From: Chloroflexota bacterium
Lineage (GTDB): Bacteria > Chloroflexota > Limnocylindria > P2-11E
DNA: 35,419 nt
NCBI GenBank assembly: GCA_021787445.1
Contig: JAJYLV010000012.1
Location: 1-35,419, forward strand
Reading direction: 5' to 3'
This document shows, piece by piece, positions 4,317 to 6,251 of this stretch; positions within the stretch are counted from its first letter, which is position 1; each line of letters begins with the position of its first letter. The translations under genes were made by a program, and so were the position numbers. The notes under the pieces were generated by a model. It saw only the letters and a program-made list of their open reading frames with translations, was not told the DNA's origin and did not search any database.

Positions 4317-5627
4317 CTAGTGCTTGGCGGCGGTCCCCTGCGCGAGCTCCAGCATGGCGAAGGCTTCCTCGAGCTGACCTCGCGCACGGAGGACGCGCGC
4401 GTACTCGGCGGCCATGTCCGACCGGTCCGCGACGTCGTTCACGTCGGAGTAGATCTCGAGCGAGCGCCGGTAGGCGGCATCCGCCGCGGAGTGGTGGCCG
4501 AGCGCCTCGTTCGCCGCGCCCAGCGCGCCCTGCGCGTCCGCCTGCTGGATGCGGTCACCGGCCTCGTCGAGGAGCTTCTCGGCGTGCGACGCCATCCGCA
4601 GCGCCTCGTCCGCGTATCCCTCGCGCAGGGCGACGCGCGCGAGGATCACCTCCGCCACCGCGGCCCACCGGACGTTGCCGACCTCGACCGCACGCGACAT
4701 CGCGCGATGCGCGGAGGCCTTCGCCTCCGACATCTCGCCGCTCTCGAACTGCACCGTCGCGATCGACTGGAGCGCGTTGAGCTCGAAGTCGATGTCGGCG
4801 ATGCGCCGGAAGAGCTCGAGCGCGCGGCGGTAGTTCGCGATGGCGCTGTCGAGCTCGCCGGAGTCGTAGTGCGTCGCGGCCATACCCATGAAGCCACGGG
4901 CGGCGACCTCGAGCTCCGAGACGCGCGAGGCCATGGCGAGCGCCGGCTCGTACGCGGCGATCGCCTTGCTCGTGCGTCCGAGACGGCGGTAGACGGTGCC
5001 GAGCGAGATGAGGATCCGCGACCGCAGGCGGGTGTCGACGACCTCGTGCCTCTCGACGACGTCGCGCGCGCTCTCGTAGGCGTCGGTCGCGGCGACGAGC
5101 TGGCCGAGCTCGAGGTACGCGAATCCGCGGTCCATGAAGAGTGCCGCGGCGAGCTCGGGATCGGCCGCGACATCGAAGAGAGCGAGCGCTCTGTCCGCGA
5201 GCTCGAACACGTGCTCGAACTTCTTGTCGGCGATCTCCGCGCGCGCGAGGAGATGCAGGAGCCCGGCGCGGTCGACCCCCTCGGGCGACTGCTCGAGCCC
5301 GAGAGCGACCTGGTCGCGCACGGCGCGCCAGTCGCGGCGCTCCGCGGCGCTCTCGGCCGCGAGCTTGTGGAACGCGACGCGCTTGCCGCTCGCGAGGGGC
5401 TCGTCCCCGAGGAAGTAGTCGAGCGGCTTGCCGAGGCGTGCCGCGATGACCTGCAGCGAACGGATGGACGGCCGAACGGTCCCCGACTCCAGCTGGGAGA
5501 TAAAGCCCTTGGTCAGCTCCTCGCCCGCCAGACGCGCTTGGCTGAAACCGAGCGCTTTGCGTGCCGAACGGACGCGCTCTCCGAGAGTCGGGCCGTTCAC
5601 CGCCGCGTTGCCGTGTTTGCCGGGCAT
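4317..5627 (-). CDS. Xre-family HTH regulator with TPR array (RRNPP-like)
   Basis: The 436-residue protein has an Xre/Cro helix-turn-helix at about residues 15-75 (TLGERVRSARKALGFSQ, then FISQLESGTVRPSIRSLQ). The remaining roughly 350 residues are helical TPR repeats, with recognisable cores such as GFAYLELGQLVAATDAYESA, SLGTVYRRLGRTSKAIAAYE, DSGELDSAIANYRRALELF and GAANEALGHHSAADAAYRRS. An HTH plus TPR architecture is that of RRNPP regulators (PlcR, NprR, Rgg, PrgX), whose TPR domains bind secreted peptides re-imported by the cell. A gene for a small secreted protein starts 130 bp away on the opposite strand, as expected for such pairs. GGAGG lies four bases before the ATG. The peptide-receptor role is inferred: many Xre-TPR proteins have unknown ligands. 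Confidence 0.88.
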   Translation of the reverse strand: MPGKHGNAAVNGPTLGERVRSARKALGFSQARLAGEELTKGFISQLESGTVRPSIRSLQVIAARLGKPLDYFLGDEPLASGKRVAFHKLAAESAAERRDWRAVRDQVALGLEQSPEGVDRAGLLHLLARAEIADKKFEHVFELADRALALFDVAADPELAAALFMDRGFAYLELGQLVAATDAYESARDVVERHEVVDTRLRSRILISLGTVYRRLGRTSKAIAAYEPALAMASRVSELEVAARGFMGMAATHYDSGELDSAIANYRRALELFRRIADIDFELNALQSIATVQFESGEMSEAKASAHRAMSRAVEVGNVRWAAVAEVILARVALREGYADEALRMASHAEKLLDEAGDRIQQADAQGALGAANEALGHHSAADAAYRRSLEIYSDVNDVADRSDMAAEYARVLRARGQLEEAFAMLELAQGTAAKH

Positions 5628-5643
5628 TGAGCCTCCGCTGCTA

Positions 5644-5659
5644 CCGGTCCCGAGACCGG
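5644..5659. promoter_or_regulatory. Inverted repeat CCGGTC-CCGA-GACCGG
   Basis: A perfect 6-bp inverted repeat with a 4-bp spacer lies 17 bp upstream of the Xre-TPR start codon, in the divergent intergenic region. The position suits an autoregulatory operator for the HTH protein, but it could also form a hairpin in the 5' leader of that mRNA. Confidence 0.45.
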
Positions 5660-5693
5660 ATCGACAGGTCGGATGATCGACCGCCTGCCTGTC
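5659..5693. promoter_or_regulatory. Compound repeats between regulator and peptide gene
   Basis: Three overlapping symmetries are visible. GATCGAC occurs as a direct repeat at 5659-5665 and 5675-5681 (16-bp period). GGTCG (5667-5671) and CGACC (5678-5682) form an inverted repeat with a 6-bp spacer. GACAGG (5663-5668) and CCTGTC (5688-5693) form a wider inverted repeat. This density of symmetry is suggestive of a multi-site operator; no binding evidence is available. Confidence 0.4.
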
Positions 5694-5724
5694 TTTGTGG
5701 TGGACTGTCAGGACTTTAGTTTGG

Positions 5725-5736
5725 CTGAACGTTCAG
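5725..5736. promoter_or_regulatory. Perfect 12-bp palindrome CTGAACGTTCAG upstream of peptide gene
   Basis: This uninterrupted palindrome ends 21 bp before the ATG of the secreted-peptide gene, close to where a promoter or transcription start would lie (a TTTAGT sits at 5715-5720). Its length and placement fit a dimeric Xre-type binding site controlling the peptide gene. Confidence 0.5.
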
Positions 5737-5757
5737 GTACAAGCGGGGGGTCGAGAG

Positions 5758-5997
5758 ATGAGACGGATCAGAAAGCTACTTCTGGCTCTGGGATTCGCGG
5801 CGACGCTGCTGCTGGCGTTCCCGATCGCGGCGTCGGCCGATCCGGGCGACGGCGGCGGGTTCTACGACCCGACGGCGACCACGCCCGTCGGTACGGTCAC
5901 GATCTCCGCGCCCGGCCAGGTCACGATCAAGGGGACCGCCGTCACGCCATTCGCGAGCAACTCGGCATCGGACCCGGGCGACGGCGGCGGCTTCTAG
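5758..5997 (+). CDS. Small secreted protein with duplicated terminal octapeptide (putative signalling-peptide precursor)
   Basis: The 79-residue product has a classical signal peptide: basic MRRIRK, a hydrophobic core, and a predicted cleavage after ...PIAASA (residue 27). The predicted 52-residue mature protein begins with DPGDGGGF (28-35) and ends with exactly DPGDGGGF (72-79), followed directly by the stop codon. The middle is Thr/Val/Pro-rich (e.g. GTVTISAPGQVTIKGTAVTP) and probably extended or beta. The two octapeptide-coding stretches differ at two codons, GAT/GAC and GGG/GGC, both synonymous. The ATG at 5758 is preceded by GGGGGG; a longer frame to 5695 exists but would mask the signal peptide. 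The neighbour is a divergent Xre-TPR regulator, so a secreted and re-imported pheromone is the leading idea. A structural surface peptide is the alternative. Confidence 0.8.
   Translation: MRRIRKLLLALGFAATLLLAFPIAASADPGDGGGFYDPTATTPVGTVTISAPGQVTIKGTAVTPFASNSASDPGDGGGF
5839..5862 (+). repeat. Octapeptide-coding repeat, copy 1 (DPGDGGGF)
   Basis: These eight codons encode residues 28-35, immediately after the predicted signal-peptidase site ASA. The copy differs from copy 2 only by GAT for Asp and GGG for the last Gly. Confidence 0.85.
5971..5994 (+). repeat. Octapeptide-coding repeat, copy 2 (DPGDGGGF, C-terminal)
   Basis: These eight codons encode residues 72-79 and abut the TAG stop. Pheromone precursors of the PapR/NprX type also carry the active peptide at or near the C-terminus. 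Both differences from copy 1 are synonymous. Confidence 0.85.
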
Positions 5998-6041: not shown

Positions 6042-6251
6042 GTGCCCGCCGCCATCTCCTCCGACCGCAAGCAGCAGCTCGAGGTCGACGGCAAGCAGTT
6101 CCTCTTCCAGCACGGCTACCGCTTCGGAAAGGTCACGTACATCACGCGCCTTCCCCTCTCCCGCAGCCGGATCGCGTGGACGCCCGGGCACCTCACCGCG
6201 GAAGAGGTCGAACAGGTGATCCGGGGGGATGACCCCTGGATGCTGGAGTGA
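6042..6251 (+). CDS. Small soluble protein, unknown function
   Basis: A 69-residue product begins at GTG 6042 (VPAAISSDRKQQLEVDGKQF). It contains FQHGYRFGKVTYITRLPLSRSRIAWTPG in overlapping segments and ends HLTAEEVEQVIRGDDPWMLE. It is mixed basic and aromatic, with no membrane segment. A GATACT hexamer (6030-6035) ends six bases before the GTG and no Shine-Dalgarno is seen, so the mRNA may be leaderless. The same frame is open back to 5673, but that part overlaps the peptide gene in another frame and is treated as shadow. dtd starts 14 bp downstream. Family not recognised. Confidence 0.6.
   Translation: MPAAISSDRKQQLEVDGKQFLFQHGYRFGKVTYITRLPLSRSRIAWTPGHLTAEEVEQVIRGDDPWMLE

Follow-up and report, generated by a model that had tools for sequence, protein, structure and literature searches.

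Organization of the locus

We have analyzed a 35,419-nt stretch of Chloroflexota DNA, referred to here as the window, which is ~71% GC and is one entire contig (C48) of the 2.5-Mb genome G000. The features under consideration are collected in Table 1. An initial annotation had placed here a gene for an Xre-HTH/TPR protein, divergent across 130 bp from a gene for a 79-aa protein, and had regarded the two as a candidate signalling pair; the coordinates, the orientation and the size of the small protein were borne out.

Table 1. Features of the regulator/small-gene locus in the window, and the tiny ORFs beside homologous receptors elsewhere
Feature	Position	Strand	Size or basis
Xre-HTH/TPR regulator, candidate cytoplasmic pheromone receptor	4317..5627	-	436 aa; Pfam, AlphaFold2, Foldseek
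Divergent intergenic/promoter region	5628..5757		130 bp
Diverged copy of intergenic element GAGACCGAACTGACAGG, operator candidate	5652..5668	+	3 mismatches in core
Candidate exported pheromone precursor with two identical octapeptides	5758..5997	+	79 aa; orthologous small ORF at every intact locus of the order
Predicted Sec signal peptide, residues 1-27, MRRIRKLLLALGFAATLLLAFPIAASA	5758..5838	+	AxA site read by eye
N-terminal DPGDGGGF copy, adjoining ASA	5839..5862	+	unchanged in the sister species G004
C-terminal DPGDGGGF copy, adjoining the stop codon	5971..5994	+	identical in G004, 0 nonsynonymous changes
Tiny exported ORFs, divergent from receptor (L198, L199, L200, L201, L202, L203, L205, L148)	123-132 bp upstream of receptor		26-28 aa

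For the regulator we obtained Pfam matches to HTH_3 (residues 19-72; 1.7e-8) and TPR_12 (8.7e-24), and an AlphaFold2 model (mean pLDDT 88) in which the Xre-type HTH, at approximately residues 15-73, is followed by 18 helices that form about nine TPR-like repeats. The locus in the window gave no Rfam, sigma-70-type promoter or terminator match. Another Xre-TPR protein of this genome, 28% identical to the regulator, is encoded on contig C24 (L011:722-1951), divergent from an ORF resembling an EAL-domain (c-di-GMP) protein.

The small ORF translates as MRRIRKLLLALGFAATLLLAFPIAASA up to the cleavage site, which we read by eye from the AxA motif, and as DPGDGGGFYDPTATTPVGTVTISAPGQVTIKGTAVTPFASNSASDPGDGGGF from there to the stop codon, giving a predicted mature part of 52 aa. 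This part begins and ends with DPGDGGGF, as had been noted initially, so that the layout is a signal peptide ending in ASA, the first octapeptide, a spacer and the C-terminal octapeptide. The two copies differ only at synonymous codons (GAT/GAC and GGG/GGC). None of 2000 shuffled versions of the mature region reached the self-repeat (p = 0.0005), and the DNA pattern of the octapeptide is confined to its two sites per genome in both G000 and its sister species G004. In relatives, a conserved 69-aa ORF that ends in GDDPWMLE, orf69 (6042-6251 in the window), separates dtd from the small gene.

Conservation of the gene pair

Regulators were found at E <= 1e-30 in 24 of the 28 genomes of the family; the orthologous group comprises 24 loci, one per genome, with 52-87% identity to the regulator of the window, and another family of the order contributes one further regulator locus. 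At all 24 intact regulator loci with enough upstream sequence we observed a small secreted ORF of 43-92 aa that is divergent from the regulator and starts 82-203 bp from it; G018, whose locus lies at a contig end, was left out of this count. The same pairing test was passed at ~2.1% of random places in comparable DNA. A consistent lack of an adjacent secreted ORF among regulator homologues, which the initial annotation had named as evidence against a signalling pair, was not observed. Chloroflexota metagenome genomes with this locus include REEB34, RIFCSPLOWO2_02_FULL_71_16, UBA4730 and CF_* genomes.

The gene order in the family is polX - regulator <> small gene - orf69 - dtd. In genus g7 the regulator and the small gene are jointly absent, and polX and orf69 are 36-43 bp apart. 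In G003 the regulator is broken to TPR fragments from which the HTH is missing (L016:2655-3430, contig C21), beside a shrunken precursor, a 36-aa ORF that ends in EPGDPGTTF directly after ASA; we read this as a decaying or shortened pair. Although G001 resembled a further loss of the pair, its contig breaks off immediately upstream of orf69, so that it was set aside as uninformative. Contig VBGS01000125.1 (L062:2305-2663) carries a tandem duplication of the beginning of polX and the C-terminal end of the regulator, either real or an artefact of assembly.

Second Xre-TPR paralogues with 38-42% identity occur at L042:323-1567, L043:1501-2745 and L010:1501-2745. By filter and inspection, neither these close paralogues nor the 28% paralogue on C24 had a small secreted ORF beside them. 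It is possible that the paralogues with 38-42% identity are receptors for the same peptide ("eavesdroppers").

Conservation and variation of the peptide

The regulator of G004 is 87% identical to that of the window, and the signal peptide and the centre of the precursor have diverged between the two species; both octapeptides are unchanged, and their 16 codons differ by 3 synonymous and 0 nonsynonymous changes. The suggestion made at the outset, that the peptide sequence itself is under selection, agrees with this comparison. In the sister pair G026/G027, the C-terminal ten codons carry 0 nonsynonymous and 7 synonymous changes, and nonsynonymous changes amount to 16/25 in the signal peptide and 12/20 in the centre. 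When seven separate species pairs were pooled, nonsynonymous changes in the C-terminal ten (8/70) were fewer than in the centre (71/194; Fisher p = 6e-5) or in the signal peptide (58/196; p = 0.002). As read from these codon changes, selection preserves the short peptide more than the remainder of the mature part.

Across the order the mature part diversifies and a D-P core is kept, often in 2-3 repeats of which the last is at the C-terminus. D-P occurs within the last 16 residues of 19/24 precursors (shuffle mean, 8.8), and over half of them show significant self-repetition (p < 0.05); the combined shuffle p is about 4e-22, a figure that is not corrected for descent. Examples of the repeats are VDPGYPQ, present twice in the mature part of G019 (TPVDPGYPQLQLVIPVDPGYPQ), SFPSDPGEP...SFPSDPGEPTD in G022 and ADPGDGGF...ADPGDGGW in G021, these three ending at the stop codon, PEDPGFGG twice in both G009 and G006, and three FPEDPW units in G008 (two to three among relatives). 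In the outgroup family, G028 has a 43-aa single-copy precursor with the C-terminal sequence AVDLTYSPAEAIDPGFE, ending in IDPGFE. A clear C-terminal D-P motif is absent from the precursors of G002, G013, G015, G016 and G020. A lack of conservation of the octapeptide among orthologues had also been named as counter-evidence; what we observed is that it is kept in G004 and that elsewhere its place is taken by a coherent C-terminal peptide with a D-P core, often repeated. Most likely, the C-terminal DPGDGGGF copy is the released form of the candidate pheromone.

Homologous regulators beyond the order

A phylum-level search identified homologues of the regulator in f19, a distant family of Chloroflexota, where a divergent ORF of 26-27 aa lies 126-132 bp upstream at 7/9 loci, and in a third family, represented by G159, where a divergent 28-aa ORF lies at 123 bp. 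These independent short forms consist of a short hydrophobic leader and a heptapeptide-like tail, with 7-8 residues following the hydrophobic stretch in f19; the tails are ADTLPGGH, ADSLPGGH, ADGLPGPR, ADTLPGPR, ADSFPCGK, ADTTSGGH, ADIMPGWK and ADIWPTR. Most of the tiny ORFs have an AAGGAG- or GGAG-type Shine-Dalgarno sequence, and in three sister pairs 29/50 of the substitutions fall at third positions (p = 3e-4). In G345, the regulator at L206 has no small ORF beside it, and a possible tandem small ORF of 27 aa at L204 is isolated and was left out of the counts. No relative of the f19 receptor was found among the PLSDB plasmids.

PapR of Bacillus cereus has the sequence ADLPFEF, and the likeness of the AD-x-x-P tails to it is a lead only. 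Directly 3' of the f19 receptor there is a gene that we named, by eye, as a REC/HD-GYP-like c-di-GMP phosphodiesterase (L200:2664-3797, and also at L198 and L202); this gene is a plausible output of the proposed signalling in f19.

Predicted fold and concave surface of the regulator

The TPR structures matched in Foldseek searches include PlcR-PapR (3u3w), RapF (3ulq), RapJ-CSF (4gyo) and Rap3T (8rtc). PlcR, Rap3T, RapF and RapJ were matched at prob 1.00, yet LGN/PINS TPRs ranked higher, and by fold as well as by sequence, where NprR is also among the matches, generic TPR proteins (LGN, consensus TPRs) outscored the RRNPP receptors. Rap proteins lack an HTH. A profile of the Chloroflexota receptors, f19 included, aligned with PlcR along the HTH plus the TPR region at E 8e-10.

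Several of the features by which RRNPP/RRNPPA systems are recognized are present: an N-terminal HTH followed by a TPR superhelix; an adjacent small exported precursor gene, at 24/24 intact loci in the order and in f19 and G159; and a short conserved peptide, usually C-terminal, which is weak in the five precursors named above. A match to a curated family profile, whether RNPP_C of Pfam or an RRNPP model of NCBIfam, is missing. The regulator fell below the cut-off of PF18768 RNPP_C (E 0.06; 13.2 bits vs 26.5) and above that of no NCBIfam model, and RNPP_C was not among the families listed at E 0.01 for an alignment of 13 receptors. We therefore do not formally file the system as RRNPP, and regard it as probably a distant member.

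Among 23 orthologues, T211, R214, R215, Y254, D255 and R331 are invariant at TPR positions that usually face the concave surface, and R204 and R414, also concave-facing, are nearly invariant (one Lys each); these assignments were made from the TPR register. Because all 24 C-terminal 16-mers of the precursors contain Asp or Glu and have few basic residues, electrostatic recognition of the peptide by the concave Arg residues would be plausible. Close paralogues that have no precursor keep most of the same residues, so the link between residues and peptide is not specific, and the invariant positions may serve something other than this peptide. At several of the positions the receptors of f19 differ, consistent with a different peptide. 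We set aside as evidence any covariation between peptide type and pocket residues: peptide types track descent and only 23-24 receptors exist, which makes it uninformative.

The shared intergenic region

In genera g2 and g3 the intergenic regions have a 15-bp core, AGACCGAACTGACAG, in common, and at 0-1 mismatch it occurs almost only at the regulator/small-gene locus, in ten relatives. In the diverged copy of the window the element contains GACAGG, which recurs inverted as CCTGTC at 5688-5693. The element suggests autoregulation of the pair. When 29 genomes were searched for a regulon with AGACCGAACTGACAG, allowing up to 1 mismatch, we obtained the locus itself in ten genomes and three lone matches elsewhere; with the core almost confined to the locus, the search identified no regulon targets and no regulated gene beyond the locus.

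Discussion

We propose, with a probability of roughly 0.7, that in Chloroflexota the pair works as a chromosomally encoded peptide-pheromone system resembling RRNPP (PlcR/NprR-like). The conserved Xre-HTH/nine-TPR regulator would be served by the small exported protein encoded divergently from it; in the mature part of that protein, a short acidic peptide with D-P at its core is present once, twice or three times, usually with one copy at the C-terminus. From the gene sequences we infer the following course of events. The Sec pathway would export the precursor, and signal peptidase and one further protease would cut the peptide free, with cleavage required behind the N-terminal copy and ahead of the C-terminal one. 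Re-import of the peptide would be by a transporter of the Opp/Dpp type; the genome encodes seven SBP_bac_5 transport proteins. Inside the cell the peptide would bind to the concave TPR surface, with the invariant Arg residues pairing with its acidic residues, and would thereby alter how the regulator binds the shared promoter. The predicted outcome is autoregulation of the pair plus regulation of other targets.

Three other readings were weighed. The small protein might instead be an exported effector, such as an antimicrobial or surface peptide, with the Xre-TPR protein as a local regulator that has another ligand. Bacteriocin-like genes could also show a conserved divergent pairing and a fast-changing mature part, and an intergenic element confined to the locus is what a single-target regulator would be expected to have. 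However, the mature parts are acidic and rich in Pro, Gly and Asp, and are neither cationic nor Cys-rich nor amphipathic; the locus is accompanied by no gene for immunity or export; the f19 precursors leave just 7-8 residues after the hydrophobic stretch; and selection acts on the C-terminal peptide. We consider an effector unlikely.

TPR domains commonly bind unfolded C-termini, and the regulator might accordingly bind, within the cytoplasm, precursor that has not been exported, or the C-terminus of such precursor, and so act as a switch for secretion stress and not in cell-to-cell signalling. A strongly conserved C-terminal copy would be present on the uncut precursor, and no dedicated importer was identified. 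Yet the occurrence of several copies, one of them right after the signal peptidase site, fits released peptides better, and peptide import systems of the right class (SBP_bac_5) are present, which leaves this second reading improbable. That an ordinary Xre-TPR regulator merely lies beside an unrelated small gene, as the conservation of the block from polX to dtd as a whole might allow, is very improbable, given that g7 retains the flanking genes but has neither gene of the pair, and that in f19 and G159 the homologous receptors again have a divergent precursor gene beside them, of unrelated sequence.

We think the odds somewhat better than even that peptide quorum sensing with a cytoplasmic receptor is phylum-wide in Chloroflexota, with at least 2 precursor designs, long and often multi-copy D-P precursors and tiny 26-28-aa ones, around homologous HTH-TPR receptors. 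Should this be true, the RRNPP principle would be far older than Bacillota or would have spread far beyond it. If the pheromone reading is right, such quorum sensing would extend to a second phylum, which diverges deeply and consists mostly of uncultured bacteria from soil and groundwater. Surveys treat the RRNPP family as one of Bacillota (PMC9765709, PMC10075063, PMC12700828): RRNPPA receptors were reported from genera of Bacillota that, with a single exception, belong to Bacilli (PMC9765709), and complete Firmicutes genomes were the only ones to which RRNPP_detector was applied (PMC10075063). In the literature searched, of which coverage was partial, we found no description of such a system in Chloroflexota. 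The predicted pheromone sequences would be ready for synthesis, and the precursors with a single copy, two identical copies and three copies form a natural series for testing why multi-copy precursors evolve.

The novelty lies in the phylum, in the families of precursors and in how widely the pairing extends; precursors with several copies are a known kind. The initial annotation, whose interpretation of the locus is otherwise supported, had considered two copies an unusual precursor design, a view that calls for correction, as multi-copy propeptides have been reported for AimR, NprR, PlcR and Rap (PMC9765709; PMC11343458) and the maturation of tandem pheromone copies has been shown (PMC11343458). 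With the multi-copy Phr, AimP, NprX and PapR propeptides the repeat-bearing Chloroflexota precursors share at least 2 identical or near-identical copies per precursor and the need for extracellular processing; they differ in that one copy can lie directly after the signal peptidase site and another at the C-terminus, with a long spacer, and in that repetition is common across the whole order.

The closest parallels are PlcR-PapR and NprR-NprX (RRNPP/RRNPPA) of the Bacillus cereus group, which likewise combine an N-terminal Xre-type HTH with a C-terminal TPR array and an adjacent small Sec-exported precursor that carries its peptide at the C-terminus; PlcR, in addition, resembles the Chloroflexota regulator in predicted fold and by profile match. 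In contrast to these systems of Bacillota, the Chloroflexota regulator stays below the RNPP_C cut-off, and the pair is divergent, with acidic D-P-core peptides and clade-specific residues on the concave surface. The 26-28-aa precursors of f19 and G159, with a hydrophobic segment, a C-terminal heptapeptide and an orientation divergent from the receptor, are similar in size to those of Rgg/ComR-SHP systems, but they end in hydrophilic peptides of the ADxxP type and have an AxA-like site, and their receptors are not Rgg by sequence.
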